From positions 1-33,689 of the forward strand of contig JAQVYS010000015.1 of the NCBI GenBank assembly GCA_028708605.1: a stretch of 33,689 nt of DNA. Reading direction: 5' to 3'. The position numbers were made by a program, and so were the translations under genes. The notes under the pieces were generated by a model, which searched no databases, was not told where the DNA came from, and saw nothing but the letters and a program-made list of their open reading frames with translations. The DNA is from Bacillota bacterium (GTDB lineage Bacteria > Bacillota > DTU065). The stretch's first letter is position 1. Each line of letters begins with the position of its first letter. Of the stretch, positions 1-33,208 are shown one piece after another.

Positions 1-519
1 ACCAGTGGACTTGTAATTATTGCTAAAAACTATCCAGCTTTGCAGACAATGACTGAGTTAATTCGCAAAAAGAGAGTCAAGAAATTTTACCTTTGCCTTG
101 TAGAAGGCAGGCTCTCAAAGCCTGGAAGTATCGAATTAAAGCTTGAAAAAATTGAAAAAAAGAATCAAGTTAAAGTCTCTAAAAGAGGATTAACCGCAAT
201 TACTCGCTACCTTCCTATTGAAAATGTAAGTGATTATTCGCTTTTAGAAGTAGAAATAGTTACTGGAAGAACCCACCAGATTCGCGTTCATTTTTCAAGT
301 ATCGGCCATCCTTTGGTAGGAGATCTAAAATATGGTAAAAGAGTTAATAATGAGCGGTTTCGGAAAGAATTTGGTTTAAAAAGACAGTTTTTGCATGCTT
401 ATAAGCTGGTAATAGAGTCGGAGAATACTTCACTTGATTATCTAGATGGTAGACACTTTAGAAGTGATCTACCTAAAGACCTGGAGTTGACACTGTCTAG
501 ACTGGAAGCCTCAAAATAA
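1..519 (+). CDS. RluA/RluD-family 23S rRNA pseudouridine synthase, 5' truncated by window edge
   Basis: Frame is open from base 1 (TSGLVIIAKN..., the end of the RLDxxTSGL catalytic motif); contains TGRTHQIRVHF and HPLVGD motifs; stop at 517-519. Confidence 0.9.
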   Translation, partial: TSGLVIIAKNYPALQTMTELIRKKRVKKFYLCLVEGRLSKPGSIELKLEKIEKKNQVKVSKRGLTAITRYLPIENVSDYSLLEVEIVTGRTHQIRVHFSSIGHPLVGDLKYGKRVNNERFRKEFGLKRQFLHAYKLVIESENTSLDYLDGRHFRSDLPKDLELTLSRLEASK

Positions 520-5584: not shown

Positions 5585-7003
5585 ATGAAGAAAACATTAA
5601 ATGTCGTCTTTCTTCTGATTTTAATTGCATTTACAGCCTCAGCAGTCTTTAGGTACGAAATTGATTGGCAAAAAGACATTTTAGAGGTAGATTCATCGGG
5701 TCAGATATTATTAAATAAATCCTTTTCTTTTAGAGTTTTGCCTGAATCAACTGAAAATGGTACAGAAATTTGGGTGGGGCTACCAACTAAGAATACTAAA
5801 GTAACAAATGCTAGCTATGTGGAAAATCGGGTCTCCACCGCTCTTGAGTTTCGACAAGATACTTCTGGAGATAACTACCAGGTCATTTTTGATAGAATAC
5901 CTGCAATATTACCTGGTCAGAGTCTAGAAATACATTATACAGCAACAGTTCCCGATTTAATTTATTGGTTAGATAAAAAACAGCCAGACGAAGAACCAAA
6001 TGCTCAAAGAGTAGCTCTTTCCTATATTCCGGCATGGTGGGATAAAGCAGTGGTAAGAGAGCTAACACTTGAGTTTAGGTTTGCTTCTCATCTTAATTTG
6101 AGTGACGTTCAATACGCAAAGGTGGAGCCTCACTTTGTAGATACAGATCAGCAATTAGTCATAGGTTACACCTACCAAAACGTGCCTCAAGAGACTAAGC
6201 TTCATCATAGTATAATCCTACCTAAAAACTACTTTGCTTCTAATTTTGAGCCCCAAAGAGACTGGCTTACTAACTCACAGATTACAGTCATAGTTAGTAT
6301 AGTTGTCGTTTTAGTACTTTTGTTTGGTGCTTTTGTTCGTTATTTAGTCAAACAAGAAAGATATACGACACCTGCAGCTTACATCACTGGTAAAGAGGCT
6401 TACACAAACTTTGATCCCGTAGAAACAGCCCTGTTTTTTAGTGTCCCTGGCGAAATTTTGGTAAAATTAATAATAATGGGATTAATGGACAAGAATATTA
6501 TTAAGATGACGTCAACAAAACAGCTGAAGAGAGAAGCTACACTAGAAAAATTAACATGGTATGAAGAGTTGTTTCTAGATGTAATTGATAAGGAAGTCAA
6601 CATAAAGCCTGAAAAATGGACAGATTTTTGCCGAGAAACCCTAGACAAACTAAAAGAGATGCTAGGTGGCTATTGTGGGGCGCAGACTAAAGCTTATTAT
6701 CAAAGGAAGTTAGCAGATATTCATGTCGAAGAGAATACAGATCCTAGGTGGCTTGTACTGAAAGACTATTTAAATCGAAAAATCTACGAAAAACCAAAGA
6801 GTAATAAGCAGTATGAACCAGTCTATCTCAACTCATACCTGCCTATATTTTACCTGAGTTTTATTGATAACGATATGGAAAGAGAGCGTAAAGCAGCTTT
6901 TACGAAGACCTTTACGTCGAGTTCTAGTGGTGGTCATAGCGGAGGAAGTAGTTGCGCTTGTGCCTGTGCTTGCGCTTGTGCGAGTAGTGGAGGTTGCACT
7001 TGA
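5585..7003 (+). CDS. DUF2207-like membrane protein with C-terminal Cys-Ala repeat tail
   Basis: MKKTLNVVFLLILIAFTASA signal peptide, extracellular domain, single strong TM (ITVIVSIVVVLVLLFGAFVRYLVKQ), then a soluble region ending SSSSGGHSGGSSCACACACACASSGGCT. ATG 5585 has RBS GTGAGGTGG; the ORF-track start at 5531 is upstream of the RBS. Confidence 0.75.
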   Translation: MKKTLNVVFLLILIAFTASAVFRYEIDWQKDILEVDSSGQILLNKSFSFRVLPESTENGTEIWVGLPTKNTKVTNASYVENRVSTALEFRQDTSGDNYQVIFDRIPAILPGQSLEIHYTATVPDLIYWLDKKQPDEEPNAQRVALSYIPAWWDKAVVRELTLEFRFASHLNLSDVQYAKVEPHFVDTDQQLVIGYTYQNVPQETKLHHSIILPKNYFASNFEPQRDWLTNSQITVIVSIVVVLVLLFGAFVRYLVKQERYTTPAAYITGKEAYTNFDPVETALFFSVPGEILVKLIIMGLMDKNIIKMTSTKQLKREATLEKLTWYEELFLDVIDKEVNIKPEKWTDFCRETLDKLKEMLGGYCGAQTKAYYQRKLADIHVEENTDPRWLVLKDYLNRKIYEKPKSNKQYEPVYLNSYLPIFYLSFIDNDMERERKAAFTKTFTSSSSGGHSGGSSCACACACACASSGGCT

Positions 7004-8277
7004 TGGGTGATAGAAGTAAATTGGTTTTTCGTGAAATAGATGGGAATAACTGGCACCTTCGCCGCGAAAGTGGCGGAGGGGTTCTTATTATAAATGGAAG
7101 TAAATTAATACACCTAAACCAGAGTGCATTTGATTTTGTTTGGCATTATCTCAAGCTAAGAGCAAACGATCAAGCAACAGTTTTTCTAATGAAAATGAAA
7201 TACGGTTTGAGTATTAAGCAAACTAAAGAGGATTGGTTTAAATTAAAGAAGACTCTGTTTCTAGCTTCTGATAACTGCTGTGAAAGATCTGGAGTAGAGG
7301 TCTCAACAGGCCAAAAAGAGTTTGAAGCACCTCTTAGGGTGGACCTAGCATTAACATATCTATGTAATAATGATTGCTTTCATTGCTACGCAGGAGGTAG
7401 TCACCATAGTCTAGAGATGGACACTAATAAATGGAAAGCTGCAATCGACAAGCTTTGGGATTTTGGAGTTCCTCAAGTTGCCTTTACAGGAGGGGAATCC
7501 CTTTTAAGAGAAGACTTGCCAATTCTCATTCGTTATGCCAAAAACCGTGGTATGATAACTGGATTAATTACAAATGGCAGACTTCTTACAAACGCAAAAA
7601 CTAAGGAATTAGCAAGATCTGGCTTAGATTTTGTGCAGATTACTATTGAGTCTCATTTAGAGACTGTTCATAATAATATGGTTAGGGCAGAAGCCTTCGT
7701 TGAGACTTTAGACGGCATCAAAAATGCACTTAAGTCGTCTTTAAAAGTGACAACAAACACGACTATGACTGCATTAAATGCTGATTCAGTGCTTGATACT
7801 GTTTCGTTTTTATTGGAACTTGGAGTAAAACAAATAGGACTAAATGGTCTTATCCGCTCTAAAAGAGGGATCGATAAAGAAGGATTAAGCTTAAAGCAGC
7901 TAGAATTAATATTAGATCAAGCCAAAAATAGTTGCAATTCACATGGCGCAGAGCTTATTTGGTTTACCCCGACATGCTATAGGTATTTTAATCCTTTAAA
8001 AGAGGGTTTGGGTACAAAACGCTGCTCAGCAGCTTCCACAGTTTTAGCCATAGAACCAGATGGAAGAGTGATGCCGTGTCAATCTTATTTCAAAGGAATT
8101 GGTAACATTAACACTGATAGTATGTCTGATATCTGGCACCATCCACTTAGTAACTCAATTCGCAATCGCGATTGGTTAGATGAGGAGTGTAAAAACTGTA
8201 ATCACATTCTAGCTTGTGGCGGAGCATGTCCTTTAGAAAGTGGCTTAGATGCAACTATCAATAAAGGGCTAATTTGA
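7003..8277 (+). CDS. Radical SAM/SPASM domain protein with N-terminal PqqD/RRE-like domain (candidate peptide-modifying enzyme)
   Basis: Radical SAM CX3CX2C (CNNDCFHC), GGESLL motif, SPASM-type Cys pattern (CSAASTVLAIEPDGRVMPC...CKNCNHILACGGAC). The N-terminal ~85 aa (GGGVLIINGSKLIHLNQSAFDFVW...) looks PqqD-like. ATG at 7003 overlaps the upstream TGA (TGATG). Confidence 0.88.
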   Translation: MGDRSKLVFREIDGNNWHLRRESGGGVLIINGSKLIHLNQSAFDFVWHYLKLRANDQATVFLMKMKYGLSIKQTKEDWFKLKKTLFLASDNCCERSGVEVSTGQKEFEAPLRVDLALTYLCNNDCFHCYAGGSHHSLEMDTNKWKAAIDKLWDFGVPQVAFTGGESLLREDLPILIRYAKNRGMITGLITNGRLLTNAKTKELARSGLDFVQITIESHLETVHNNMVRAEAFVETLDGIKNALKSSLKVTTNTTMTALNADSVLDTVSFLLELGVKQIGLNGLIRSKRGIDKEGLSLKQLELILDQAKNSCNSHGAELIWFTPTCYRYFNPLKEGLGTKRCSAASTVLAIEPDGRVMPCQSYFKGIGNINTDSMSDIWHHPLSNSIRNRDWLDEECKNCNHILACGGACPLESGLDATINKGLI

Positions 8278-8333: not shown

Positions 8334-9227
8334 ATGAAAAAACTTTTTGCTTTAATAATACTACTATCGGCTTTAGTAATCGCTACAGCTGTATTTGCGG
8401 ACAACACAGCTAACACCGTTTTTAGTGAAGCAGTACAGACTTTGAATTTAATGGACGATGTTGTTATAACTAGCCCAGGTAGTCTTAAAACCTTACGGAT
8501 TATGGAAATAGATACTCCAGTCAAAATTAAGGGCTCTAAAAATGATTTTGTAACGATTAAGTTGCTTTCCTCAAAAAAAGGATCAGCTAGTTTAGATCTT
8601 GCATATGAGATTATGGGTGAAGAGATTTGGCTGGCTGTAGAAAAAGTGGTAAGAGAACTTTTCGAAGAAGATGTCATCGAAGAAAATTTACCTATAAGAG
8701 AAAATGATGATGGCGTCTCATTAGAGGATGAAGACAGAAAAAATGTCAATCTTCAAGAAGATAGCCTACAGGAATTATCTCTAGATTTTTGGGTTGAGAT
8801 ATCCATACCCACCCATATGAATGTTGTCTTAGGAGAAACAGTTAATAAAGGCAGTATAATTGGGGTTGCAGGTGTAGATATGAACGCAGGTATTGGCGAT
8901 TTTGTTCTTGAAAATATTACAGGCTTTGTCAGAATCCGAGATAACGCAGGAACTTTAAGGTTAAAGAATGTTACTGGTGATGTTTGGATAAGCGACAAAG
9001 GCGGTGCTATTTCAGTGGAAAATGTCACAGGCCTAGTTACAATCGACAGTGACGTAGGTTTAGCCCTTAGAGTTCAGGATGTAACCGGCGATGTCACTAT
9101 CTCATCTAAGCTTGGAGGTTCTGCAGAAGTTGCGAATGTAAAGGGAAATGTTTCAGTATTCTCAAGAGCCCCGATTAAGACAGCTTGCATTGGTATTACC
9201 GGGAACGTTATAGTTCCTGAAAATTAA
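8334..9227 (+). CDS. Secreted DUF4097-like (adhesin/beta-solenoid) protein
   Basis: Signal peptide MKKLFALIILLSALVIATAVFA; C-terminal repeats of the type NxTGxVxI (ENITGFVRI, KNVTGDVWI, ENVTGLVTI, QDVTGDVTI); RBS TTGGAGG. Confidence 0.7.
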   Translation: MKKLFALIILLSALVIATAVFADNTANTVFSEAVQTLNLMDDVVITSPGSLKTLRIMEIDTPVKIKGSKNDFVTIKLLSSKKGSASLDLAYEIMGEEIWLAVEKVVRELFEEDVIEENLPIRENDDGVSLEDEDRKNVNLQEDSLQELSLDFWVEISIPTHMNVVLGETVNKGSIIGVAGVDMNAGIGDFVLENITGFVRIRDNAGTLRLKNVTGDVWISDKGGAISVENVTGLVTIDSDVGLALRVQDVTGDVTISSKLGGSAEVANVKGNVSVFSRAPIKTACIGITGNVIVPEN

Positions 9228-9324: not shown

Positions 9325-10122
9325 GTGAAAAACAAACTAGTTTTATTTATTATTTTTGTCTTAGTCCTTACATCTATTCATATCTATGCTGATGCGATAG
9401 AAGCTATAGTATTACTGCCAGATGGTAATCCTGCTCCATATGCAACCGTTACAGTTGGTGAAGATGCCTTGCAAGCAGACGGAAACGGTAAAGTAACTTT
9501 GGATGTCGGGGCAGACGTGAAGACAGTTACTGTAAAGTGGCTTGATTTAACTGCAGAATTACCTGTTTCAGAAAATCTTAAGTTTAGAAATAAAGTACTT
9601 TATGGTCCTCCTTATAGCAAAGACGACTTCTTAATTACCGGTCCTGATATTTGGGAAATAAAAGATACAGAAATTGTTACTACCGCAGATTCGGAATCAT
9701 CTATCTTCTACGAAGATGCTTTTGAAAACACAATCTTACGAGCAAAGTATACTCTTGATGATGCTGCGCAATGGTATTATATAAGGTTCTTTATTCGTCT
9801 ATATGACGCAGGATTTAACGGCTATAGTCTAAACTTTCCAGGTATCGGCGATGCCTACTATGCACGTTATGACGGTAACTGGGATCAGCATGTTGGTATG
9901 ACCTTCTTTAGGTTTAGGAGTAAAGTAAAAACAGAATACGAGTTTGTAATGTTTGCTAAGGATGAAAATATTACAGTATATCACCGCGAGACAGCAAACA
10001 AATACACTAAGGTTCTTGATATTAATGATAGTAGCCCTGATGCTTACTACGATGGTGGGTTTGCTATCATGAACAGTTTTCTCTCATGCAAAATAACAGA
10101 GCTTGGCTTATTTGCGTATTAA
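9325..10122 (+). CDS. Secreted protein of unknown family, paralogue of 25398-26219
   Basis: GTG start with RBS GGTGGAGG; signal peptide; LPDGNPAPYATVTVGE..KWLDL..YGPPYSKDDFLITGPDIWEI..GFNGYSL shared with the paralogue. Confidence 0.75.
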   Translation: MKNKLVLFIIFVLVLTSIHIYADAIEAIVLLPDGNPAPYATVTVGEDALQADGNGKVTLDVGADVKTVTVKWLDLTAELPVSENLKFRNKVLYGPPYSKDDFLITGPDIWEIKDTEIVTTADSESSIFYEDAFENTILRAKYTLDDAAQWYYIRFFIRLYDAGFNGYSLNFPGIGDAYYARYDGNWDQHVGMTFFRFRSKVKTEYEFVMFAKDENITVYHRETANKYTKVLDINDSSPDAYYDGGFAIMNSFLSCKITELGLFAY

Positions 10123-30491: not shown

Positions 30492-31634
30492 TTAGTCTAA
30501 ACTTCCGTAGATAGTGACGCTTCCAAGATTCATCCCTGAGGTCATTAATGTGCTATTAACATTGATGGTGATTGGTACAGTTTGATAAAACTCTAACCAA
30601 TTATCTCTTATCTCAAACCAAATGCTAGGATGAAAAGCTCTAAGCAGTCTGCCAAAGCCTACAGGATCTGAGCCCAATTCTCTGATAGTCGCGAGAGCTT
30701 TAGCAGCTTCCTTTTGGACATGGTGCGCCTGAGCTGTTGTAAGGTTGGTCCAATGCTTTGGTATAGTTGGGTCAATAGCACCTGTTTGTTCACCAAGATT
30801 GCTTACGACTTTAATGTTTACTTCATAGCTTACCTTACTGTTTTCGACCTTAGTTTTGATTTTGGTGCTAGCAGAGGTAATTTCTAGAGTTGCAGATTCA
30901 ACTTCAGAATTTTCGATAACTATTAAGCCGCCTTCGATTTGTCCCATTAGCCAAAGCAAACCTCTCGAAGTAAGGGTGTCAATATTCCCTACGAAGGTTT
31001 CGCGTCTAAAGAGTGAAGTTCCCTTAACTTCTATAAATGTTTCGTCTTCCACGTCTCTAGTTCCAAGTAACGTACAAGCAAAGTCCTTACCTTCATTACT
31101 TAAGGAGACAGTAACCTCCTTAAACCTAGTATGGACATATTTACCAAGAGATTGTTTTGTGACAAAGAGTGCGTTTAGGCCTTCTCCAGAAATATCCTCT
31201 AAGGCAACTTTTGCTTTTAATAGCTCTCTAGCTTTTTTTTCGGTGACCGCTATCGAAATAATAGGGCGGACCTCAAAGTCTCTGATGAAACAGTCTGTTA
31301 AGACGGCTAACCCTTTGTCTAAAGAATCTTCACTAAAAATCGCTATCTGTAGATAACCCCAATAGAGTTTGTGAGACAAGTAGCTTGAAGCATTTCGAAT
31401 AGCATCAAATATTGTGGCTCCAGATGTATAGATTGTAGTAGTAACGTTTTCACTTGAAGTTTGGGCGATTTTCTCCGGTCTAATAATTTGAATTGTTAAG
31501 TAGTATTTGTTGTCTTCATAGTCGATACCAACGGCAGAAACTAGAGCTAAATCCTCTAGTTCATATGAACTCCAACATCCAGTTCCAAAAACGACAATCA
31601 GTATCAACAAAATTAGTGTCAGTTTCAGCTTCAA
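30492..31634 (-). CDS. Ger(x)C-family spore germination lipoprotein
   Basis: Lipobox FGTGCW; CWSSYELEDLALVSAVGIDYE typical of GerAC; ATGA overlap with the upstream GerA gene. Confidence 0.92.
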   Translation of the reverse strand: MKLKLTLILLILIVVFGTGCWSSYELEDLALVSAVGIDYEDNKYYLTIQIIRPEKIAQTSSENVTTTIYTSGATIFDAIRNASSYLSHKLYWGYLQIAIFSEDSLDKGLAVLTDCFIRDFEVRPIISIAVTEKKARELLKAKVALEDISGEGLNALFVTKQSLGKYVHTRFKEVTVSLSNEGKDFACTLLGTRDVEDETFIEVKGTSLFRRETFVGNIDTLTSRGLLWLMGQIEGGLIVIENSEVESATLEITSASTKIKTKVENSKVSYEVNIKVVSNLGEQTGAIDPTIPKHWTNLTTAQAHHVQKEAAKALATIRELGSDPVGFGRLLRAFHPSIWFEIRDNWLEFYQTVPITINVNSTLMTSGMNLGSVTIYGSLD

Positions 31635-33208
31635 TGGTTCTCACCTTGGTCATTATTTAAGTGTGTTAACCGAAAGTCAGCGCGCTTTTTGTCTACTGCA
31701 AATTGACGCGGTCGAAAAACTCTCATCCATATTGGCAAACGTACAAAGGTGTCTGCCATCTCTTTTGGAATAAGGGGTGAAATCGGAGAGAGATACGGAA
31801 TCCCAAAAGAATAAAGAGAAGTTAAATAAAGTAAGGTGACAATGATCCCGTAGACAAGGCCATAAAAGCCCAATAATCCTACTAAAAGGAGATAGAAATA
31901 TCTTAAGAAGGTTGCTGGTTCAAAGAGGGACGGAATTATAAAATTCGCAATTGCAGTAAGTGCGATAGAAATCACCATAGGAGCGCCTACAAGACCTGCA
32001 TTTACCGCGGCGTCACCGATAACTAAAGCGCCAACAATGTTTACTGCACCACCAACTGCCCCCGGCATACGAATACCAGCTTCTCTCAGGATTTCGAAAA
32101 ATAAAGACAAAATAAGAGCCTCAACAAAAGCTGAAAACGGTGTGGACATTCTCGCTGCAGCAAAAGAATAGGCTAGGTAATTGGGAAGTAGTTCATGATG
32201 AAATGAAGTAAGCGCTACATAAGAAGGAACTGTAAAGATGCTTAAGAGAAACGCTACAAACCTAAGAAGCCTTAAGGAACTTTGCATAATCCACGGACTA
32301 CAATAATCCGAGGGGACTTGGAAGTGTTCAATAAATAGATGCGGGACAGTCAGCACAAACGGTGTTCCGTTAACTATAATGGCAATTCTTCCCTCTAAAA
32401 TCTTGCTTGCTACCTTATCGGGTCTTTCACTAACTCCTATAGTTGGAAAAGGGGAGTGGGGCGAATCACCTATTAATTCACTAATAATCCCAGATGAGAG
32501 TAAACCATCGATTTTAGAGGATTTTAAACGTCTTTTTACCTCATCCAAAAGCTCAGGGCGTGCGATACCTTTGACATAAGCAATACAGATATCTGTTTTA
32601 GTTACAACACCAATTGAGGTCATCTCTAAAGCTAAATTAGGAGTAGCGATGATCCGCCTTAAAAGAGAGGTGTTGATTCTTAAATTTTCTACGAAACCCA
32701 ATCTAGGGCCTTGTGTAGTTCTTTCTGTATCTGGTTCTTCGATAGCGCGTGTTGCAAATCGCCTGTGTCCTAAGACTAATGTGTCTTGAAAGCCATCGAT
32801 AAGTAGTGCGGTTTCTCCCTGCATAACACGTTCAACAGCTCTATATAACTCGTTTTCGATCTTCAGTTCAGTTGAAAGAATCAAGTGATTGGTGATGGCC
32901 TCTAAAGGGCTTAGGTTCGTACCAATAATATTTTTAAAATATTCCTCCTGAATTAAAGGCTGTATAACTCGAACCTCTAGCGCTTCTTTGTCTACTAATC
33001 CGTCTACAAAAAGCAAGATAGCTCTGATTTCTCCGTTAAACCCGATATTAAGCTCTCTAATAATAATATCGGGGCTTTCTCTGAACTGTCTTTTTAGATA
33101 TAGGATTTTTTTGTCTAATGATTTTGTAGGCAGAGGTATCGTTGGATCTTGATCACTACTTGCAAATAATCTTTTGAGACCTAACTTTTGCTTTAACCAT
33201 GCAAACAT
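31631..33208 (-). CDS. GerA-family spore germination protein (A subunit)
   Basis: GFVENLRINTSLLRRII, KTDICIAYVKGIA, EGRIAIIVNGTPFVLTVPHLF, YVALTSFHHELLP, AVNAGLVGAPMVI motifs. Confidence 0.93.
   Translation of the reverse strand: MFAWLKQKLGLKRLFASSDQDPTIPLPTKSLDKKILYLKRQFRESPDIIIRELNIGFNGEIRAILLFVDGLVDKEALEVRVIQPLIQEEYFKNIIGTNLSPLEAITNHLILSTELKIENELYRAVERVMQGETALLIDGFQDTLVLGHRRFATRAIEEPDTERTTQGPRLGFVENLRINTSLLRRIIATPNLALEMTSIGVVTKTDICIAYVKGIARPELLDEVKRRLKSSKIDGLLSSGIISELIGDSPHSPFPTIGVSERPDKVASKILEGRIAIIVNGTPFVLTVPHLFIEHFQVPSDYCSPWIMQSSLRLLRFVAFLLSIFTVPSYVALTSFHHELLPNYLAYSFAAARMSTPFSAFVEALILSLFFEILREAGIRMPGAVGGAVNIVGALVIGDAAVNAGLVGAPMVISIALTAIANFIIPSLFEPATFLRYFYLLLVGLLGFYGLVYGIIVTLLYLTSLYSFGIPYLSPISPLIPKEMADTFVRLPIWMRVFRPRQFAVDKKRADFRLTHLNNDQGENH

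Follow-up and report, generated by a model that had tools for sequence, protein, structure and literature searches.

Why should a large bacterial membrane protein end in a run of alternating cysteines and alanines, directly in front of a gene for a radical S-adenosylmethionine (rSAM) enzyme? This question is raised by a contig of a Bacillota bacterium of the GTDB lineage DTU065 (assembly GCA_028708605.1, contig JAQVYS010000015.1), whose whole analysed stretch of 33,689 nucleotides is called the window here. The gene at 5585-7003 encodes a protein of 472 residues with the C-terminus SSCACACACACASSGGCT, the translated tail ending in SSSSGGHSGGSSCACACACACASSGGCT, and the gene behind it encodes an rSAM enzyme with a SPASM domain (Table 1). 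We consider it fairly probable that this enzyme has the membrane protein as its substrate, being a dedicated maturase with a recognition element (RRE) of the kind used for ribosomally synthesised and post-translationally modified peptides (RiPPs), and that the tail becomes modified, likely by thioethers, in a product that stays on the protein.

The simplest explanation of such a repeat would be a recent slippage of the DNA or a low-complexity accident without function, and other genomes do contain TGYGCN runs that fall in non-coding frames (reading QAQA, or GAGA on the other strand). The sequence-only reading had already argued for selection on the amino acids from the mixed codons of the repeat, TGC GCT TGT GCC TGT GCT TGC GCT TGT GCG, which are confirmed at 6953-6982. 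The window has a single site with five consecutive TGYGCN units, a pattern absent from all 100 dinucleotide shuffles, and in the 2.16-Mb genome the three-unit pattern is found at this site only, as three overlapping matches. Tandem Repeats Finder reports a weak array with 77-80% matches, which does not look like a fresh slippage product. The ten Cys-Ala residues are identical in the four orthologues of the window clade (G001, G002, G015, and L012 from a Halothermothrix metagenome-assembled genome), although the five sequences are overall only 38-63% identical. Within the run, three to seven of the ten codons differ per orthologue pair and every change is silent, whereas across the 30 codons 5' of it, compared without gaps, each pair shows 13-27 non-synonymous differences, the linker before the repeat being saturated with amino-acid changes. 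In an alignment of 46 homologues, ten of the 14 invariant columns belong to the tail. As judged from these comparisons, the Cys-Ala repeat is under selection at the protein level, and the earlier argument thus holds on independent grounds, the silent-only codon divergence and the conservation across the 46 homologues. A functionless origin is hardly conceivable given the mixed codons, the silent substitutions, the conservation across domains of life, the constant C-terminal position of the repeat in the (CA)n type, and the linkage to rSAM genes; a slippage artefact is ruled out by the silent codon divergence together with the conservation across phyla. The repeat is followed by the codons AGT AGT GGA GGT TGC ACT TGA. 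The two glycine codons (GGAGGT at 6989-6994) form a perfect Shine-Dalgarno sequence 8 nt 5' of the ATG of the rSAM gene, so that the conservation of the glycines may be partly at the nucleotide level. The stop codon overlaps the rSAM start codon (TGATG), and the two genes are therefore translationally coupled.

Genome comparison strongly implies an action of the rSAM enzyme on the tail, namely through the linkage of the two genes and the co-variation of tail type and enzyme clade. The enzyme sequence alone gave no matches when genomes were scanned with it, and an alignment-based scan recovered the relatives. According to profile searches, the pair of enzyme and substrate is present in Asgard archaea (Heimdallarchaeota and others), Bathyarchaeota, Chloroflexota, Sumerlaeota, and several families of the Bacillota. 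The substrate profile matches 30 of 400 Chloroflexota genomes and about a third of the Asgard-phylum genomes (73 of 228), the weaker matches including proteins with (CHSA)n tails. The window clade has the tail CACACACACASSGGCT, Heimdallarchaeota have CACACACACACAGGGR, and most Chloroflexota have CACACACAGCACACAGGGR. In 66 of the 69 loci with (CA)n tails an rSAM/SPASM gene lies at the same locus in the same orientation, in most cases with an overlap or at a distance of up to 150 bp, and the genomes of the three unlinked loci (L051, L103, L116) each encode exactly one enzyme of the family elsewhere. Within the family to which the window belongs, two genomes lack the substrate, and both lack the enzyme as well. 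The sequence-only reading had pointed to orthologues with the same rSAM neighbour but without conserved cysteines as one case that would speak against it. No such protein turned up, the Cys-Ala tail being kept in 69 of 69 (CA)n substrates, and the weaker substrate homologues retain a related cysteine repeat. Starting in reverse from TGYGCN runs in 349 Bacillota genomes, in-frame Cys-Ala tails were found at the four window-clade loci and at six further loci, the other matches being low complexity in other frames. In these six (G052, G090, G155, G180, G254, G324), CACVSCACACVSCACACACAGG is part of a single-pass membrane protein that adjoins another rSAM/SPASM gene. The sister tail types CACVSCACAC... 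and (CHSA)n likewise occur with rSAM enzymes. In the enzyme tree, all (CHSA)n enzymes group together in a single clade (support 100), and tail type needs one change on this tree.

The enzyme itself has the architecture of a SPASM peptide maturase. It matches the Pfam families Radical_SAM (1.2e-22) and SPASM (1.8e-12), and its best sequence match in the PDB is the sactisynthase SkfB (6efn, E=1.6e-36). The AlphaFold2 model (pLDDT 90, pTM 0.90) places an N-terminal domain with the RRE arrangement before the radical SAM core and the SPASM domain. The closest solved folds found by Foldseek are SkfB, SuiB, CteB, BlsE, PqqE, TigE, and anSME, with SuiB and CteB matching over the full length. The CxxxCxxC motif and the SPASM pattern CX9-15GX4C...CX2CX5CX3C are both present, although the usual last SPASM cysteine is absent in the clade of the window enzyme. 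A PqqD-like recognition domain is indicated by the model, by Foldseek, and by Pfam PqqD matches in seven of 16 family members (best 3.3e-7), and the conserved neighbour with repeated target residues completes the picture of a peptide maturase. Pfam and NCBIfam identify the enzyme at the superfamily level only, since it does not reach any NCBIfam equivalog cut-off (best TIGR04347, 127 of 525 bits).

The substrate is less easily classified. The window protein reaches no Pfam or NCBIfam cut-off, and a search of solved structures with the substrate profile gave zero matches. Foldseek finds beta domains of the M1 aminopeptidase N-domain and ribophorin I types at a low TM-score (0.3). An identity with ribophorin I was dropped because the Asgard members do not have a Pfam ribophorin match. 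From the sequence alone, a signal peptide, an outer domain, and one strong transmembrane segment (TM) followed by RYLVKQER and by no further clear TM had been read, and the tail had been placed in the cytosol. The hydropathy of the protein agrees with this, showing a signal peptide, one strong TM at about 233-251, and then RYLVKQER, and so does the AlphaFold model (pLDDT 86) with its beta-rich outer domain, single TM helix, helical domain, and disordered tail. A weak hydropathy peak at 279-297 (Kyte-Doolittle 1.61) falls into helices of the modelled cytosolic domain. Of the 46 homologues, 45 have a signal peptide or a hydrophobic segment at the N-terminus, and most have one strong TM, typically with three to six Lys/Arg after but none or one before the TM. 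The few homologues with three TMs would still have the tail on the same side, and in those scored with two, either the weak peak belongs to the folded domain or another TM may have been missed. Three concordant predictions, from hydropathy, the positive-inside rule, and AlphaFold, thus support the cytosolic placement, and the Cys-Ala tail is predicted to be cytosolic.

How could such a tail be processed? In our proposal, the domain on the cytosolic side of the TM would act as a built-in leader docking on the RRE, and the flexible Gly/Ser linker would bring the (Cys-Ala)n tail to the active site. There the enzyme would most likely link each cysteine sulphur to the alpha carbon of an alanine by sactionine-type thioethers. 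The modified tail may then serve at the inner face of the membrane in metal, redox, or structural work, for example as a rigid element. Thioethers to the alanine alpha carbon are our first choice of chemistry for three reasons. In none of the 46 tails do the numbers of cysteines and alanines differ by more than one (7:7, 6:6, 8:8, 6:5, 7:6, 10:9), alanine accompanies nearly every cysteine in the (CHSA)n repeats too, and SkfB, the nearest solved enzyme, tolerates a substituted alanine as thioether acceptor (review PMC8326336). It is possible, although unlikely, that the rSAM enzyme matures the tail by another chemistry, such as cysteine oxidation or rearrangement, beta or gamma thioethers of the ranthipeptide type, C-C crosslinks, or epimerisation, or that it modifies the C-terminal GGGR/GGCT. 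The SPASM maturases are chemically diverse (PMC8326336, PMC9062424), PqqE- and anSME-like structures are also among the Foldseek matches, the C-terminus is nearly invariant (GGGR in 40 and GGCT in five of the 46 homologues), and an Asp-Cys repeat system with an rSAM enzyme has been described whose product is unknown (PMC9062424). However, a sactisynthase is the closest solved enzyme by both sequence and fold, and the near 1:1 ratio in nearly all tails and across the tail types suggests that both residues take part.

The sequence-only reading had offered as its own alternative an unmodified metal-binding or redox tail in the cytosol, to which we add iron-sulphur binding, with the rSAM enzyme acting elsewhere in a shared pathway. 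At least five closely spaced cysteines can bind soft metals, and zinc-ribbon membrane proteins (L051, L054, L103) as well as a calcineurin-like phosphoesterase (with the (CHSA)n type) are encoded near some relatives. We regard this as improbable because an alternating CxC over 10-16 residues with nearly fixed alanines is not a known metal motif, the conservation of the alanines would not be needed, and the obligatory partner, which is of the RiPP-maturase type with an RRE and co-varies with the tail type, would be left unexplained. That a protease releases the modified tail as a peptide for secretion or signalling, as in a classical RiPP pathway, seems very improbable to us. Pairs of an RRE and an rSAM domain usually make RiPPs, but here the coupling is between the two genes themselves, the precursors are membrane proteins of 470-630 residues with a predicted cytosolic tail, and a peptidase or transporter gene was not seen directly beside the pair either in the window or in the relatives with scanned neighbours. 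The product therefore probably stays on the membrane protein.

Several points weigh against maturation of the tail by thioethers. The proposal is built on sequences and models, and the 1:1 ratio would equally fit a chemistry of the cysteines only, with alanine as a spacer. The reactions known from SPASM enzymes further include C-C and C-O links, formylglycine formation, and decarboxylations, so that homology does not fix the reaction. The window enzyme itself does not have a Pfam match to PqqD. An apparently dead rSAM paralogue and methyltransferases near the pair in Anaerolineae and Sumerlaeota suggest more than one step. Of the (CHSA)n proteins, some in Asgard archaea have the rSAM gene in divergent orientation or a few kb away (G986), and the (CHSA)n genome G1019 does not encode an enzyme of the family at E<=1e-50.

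The pair shares features with several known systems. The sactipeptide and other RiPP maturases SkfB, CteB, and SuiB combine a radical SAM core, a SPASM domain, and an N-terminal RRE with a cysteine-containing substrate next door, but the putative substrate here, a C-terminal tail, belongs to a large single-pass membrane protein and is not a small, cleaved, and exported peptide, and neither a protease nor an exporter is encoded directly beside it. The TIGR04222 membrane proteins have Cys-rich Gly/Ser tails that are presumed targets of neighbouring MNIO enzymes (PMC12452194), and resemble the system in having a membrane protein with a C-terminal Gly/Ser/Cys tail beside a RiPP enzyme. In contrast, the partner described here is an rSAM/SPASM enzyme, the Cys-Ala repeat is strict, and the tail is predicted to be cytosolic and not periplasmic as in PMC12452194. 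The window protein does not have an NCBIfam match and its neighbour is an rSAM enzyme, so it is not a member, although one Asgard homologue gave a sub-threshold TIGR04222 match (E=0.0086). DUF2207 proteins (PF09972/PF20990) likewise have an outer beta-rich domain, a TM, a cytosolic domain, and a Gly-rich C-terminus. The window protein does not match DUF2207, and its relatives do so only below threshold (best 4e-4 for a (CHSA)n and 8e-4 for a (CA)n protein). Genuine members are nearly free of cysteines in the tail, ten from Bacillota having Gly-rich tails with none or one in the last 60 residues. The system thus looks like a DUF2207-type glycine tail with a built-in Cys-Ala segment and its own enzyme. 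The TIGR04117 targets carry a cysteine every four residues beside rSAM genes, as do the (CHSA)n tails, for which a sub-threshold match was found (E=0.093), but the model has 98 positions, presumably describing small peptides, and the window tail has a period of two and no match. QhpD, the QHNDH maturase, installs thioethers on a resident protein and not on a peptide product (PMC8326336); however, it belongs to a different family and its substrate is a folded dehydrogenase subunit instead of a repeat tail. A published map of rSAM/SPASM RiPP clusters mentions an Asp-Cys but not a Cys-Ala repeat (PMC9062424). Literature searches on Cys-Ala repeats, on DUF2207 with radical SAM, and on Asgard RiPPs, with subscription papers mostly outside their reach, found nothing describing this system.

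Small excreted peptides are what radical SAM RiPP enzymes are generally known to make. The presumed product here would be a resident membrane protein, and the system would offer a first handle on membrane proteins of the DUF2207/TPM/LemA type. In its full form our proposal is tentative: an RRE-guided rSAM enzyme might permanently install a run of Cys-Ala crosslinks on a cytosolic tail, in a previously undescribed maturation system of Asgard and Bathyarchaeal archaea and of Bacillota, Chloroflexota, and Sumerlaeota, and might so create a new protein-bound structure at the membrane, either a polythioether rod or a metal/electron site.

Table 1. Features of the substrate and maturase genes and of the conserved genes behind them (positions in the window; residue numbers refer to the encoded proteins).
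Feature	Position	Strand	Basis
Putative substrate gene, 472-residue membrane protein	5585..7003	+	translation, AlphaFold2 model, hydropathy
Substrate parts: signal peptide 1-21; M1-N-domain/DUF2207-like beta-rich outer domain; TM about 230-257			
Substrate parts C-terminal of the TM: predicted cytosolic helical domain 278-440; disordered tail 444-472			
Ser/Gly-rich flexible linker 5' of the repeat, varying among orthologues	6917..6952	+	
(Cys-Ala)5 core repeat, proposed rSAM substrate	6953..6982	+	
C-terminal SSGGCT	6983..7000	+	direct reading; orthologue codons
Radical SAM/SPASM maturase gene	7003..8277	+	Pfam, PDB match, Foldseek
RRE (PqqD-like winged helix-turn-helix), residues about 5-90, four strands then three helices	7015..7272	+	AlphaFold2 model
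CxxxCxxC radical SAM cluster motif CNNDCFHC	7363..7386	+	C121, C125, C128 invariant in 52 enzymes
SPASM cysteines C341, C359, C396, C399, C405, C409 (Cx12GX4C...CX2CX5CX3C)	8023..8229	+	invariants in 52 enzymes; alignment
Exported protein, third conserved gene	8334..9227	+	58% and 35% identity in G001 and G002
Exported protein, fourth conserved gene, no family	9325..10122	+	58% and 49% identity in G001 and G002

The (CHSA)n tails occur on weaker homologues in Asgard archaea, Chloroflexota, and Bacillota, with the rSAM gene adjacent on the same strand in five of ten loci. This sister family is found on larger membrane proteins (L111-L115, L081, L082, L026-L028), and in three Asgard loci the gene of the (CHSA)n protein is adjoined by a phosphoesterase-like gene, which is calcineurin-like by Pfam in L113:2725-3480. 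The Bacillota proteins with CACVSCACACVSCACACACAGG tails at L161:6156-7619 and L163:5664-6970 belong to clusters in the order rSAM, tail protein, TPM domain, and LemA, the TPM-domain and LemA genes being confirmed by Pfam at one locus, L161. At L159 and L160 the tail protein runs on into the TPM domain within one frame.

Other genes accompany the pair in part of the relatives. Loci of Anaerolineae and Sumerlaeota encode a further rSAM-like protein that has a PqqD domain and lacks the CxxxCxxC motif (L018:6242-7438, L022:4074-5267, L025:6366-7655), apparently a catalytically dead partner. A class I SAM methyltransferase, which could possibly provide a second tailoring step, adjoins the rSAM or the substrate gene in Heimdallarchaeota and Chloroflexota (L015:6176-7000, L018:7398-8165, L051:3203-4024). 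Small membrane proteins with a C-terminal zinc ribbon ending in EEPKW or EDVKW are encoded immediately 5' of the substrate gene in Chloroflexota and in one Asgard-phylum genome (L051:1085-1441, L054:152-592, L103:572-982). In the window itself, the protein of the third conserved gene is weakly DUF4097-like as judged by its G001 orthologue. A desulfoferrodoxin-type protein (PF01880, E=6.4e-32) is encoded upstream of the pair at 605-964. Spore germination genes of the GerA and GerAC type are present on the reverse strand at 30492-33208, and the host is therefore probably a spore former.
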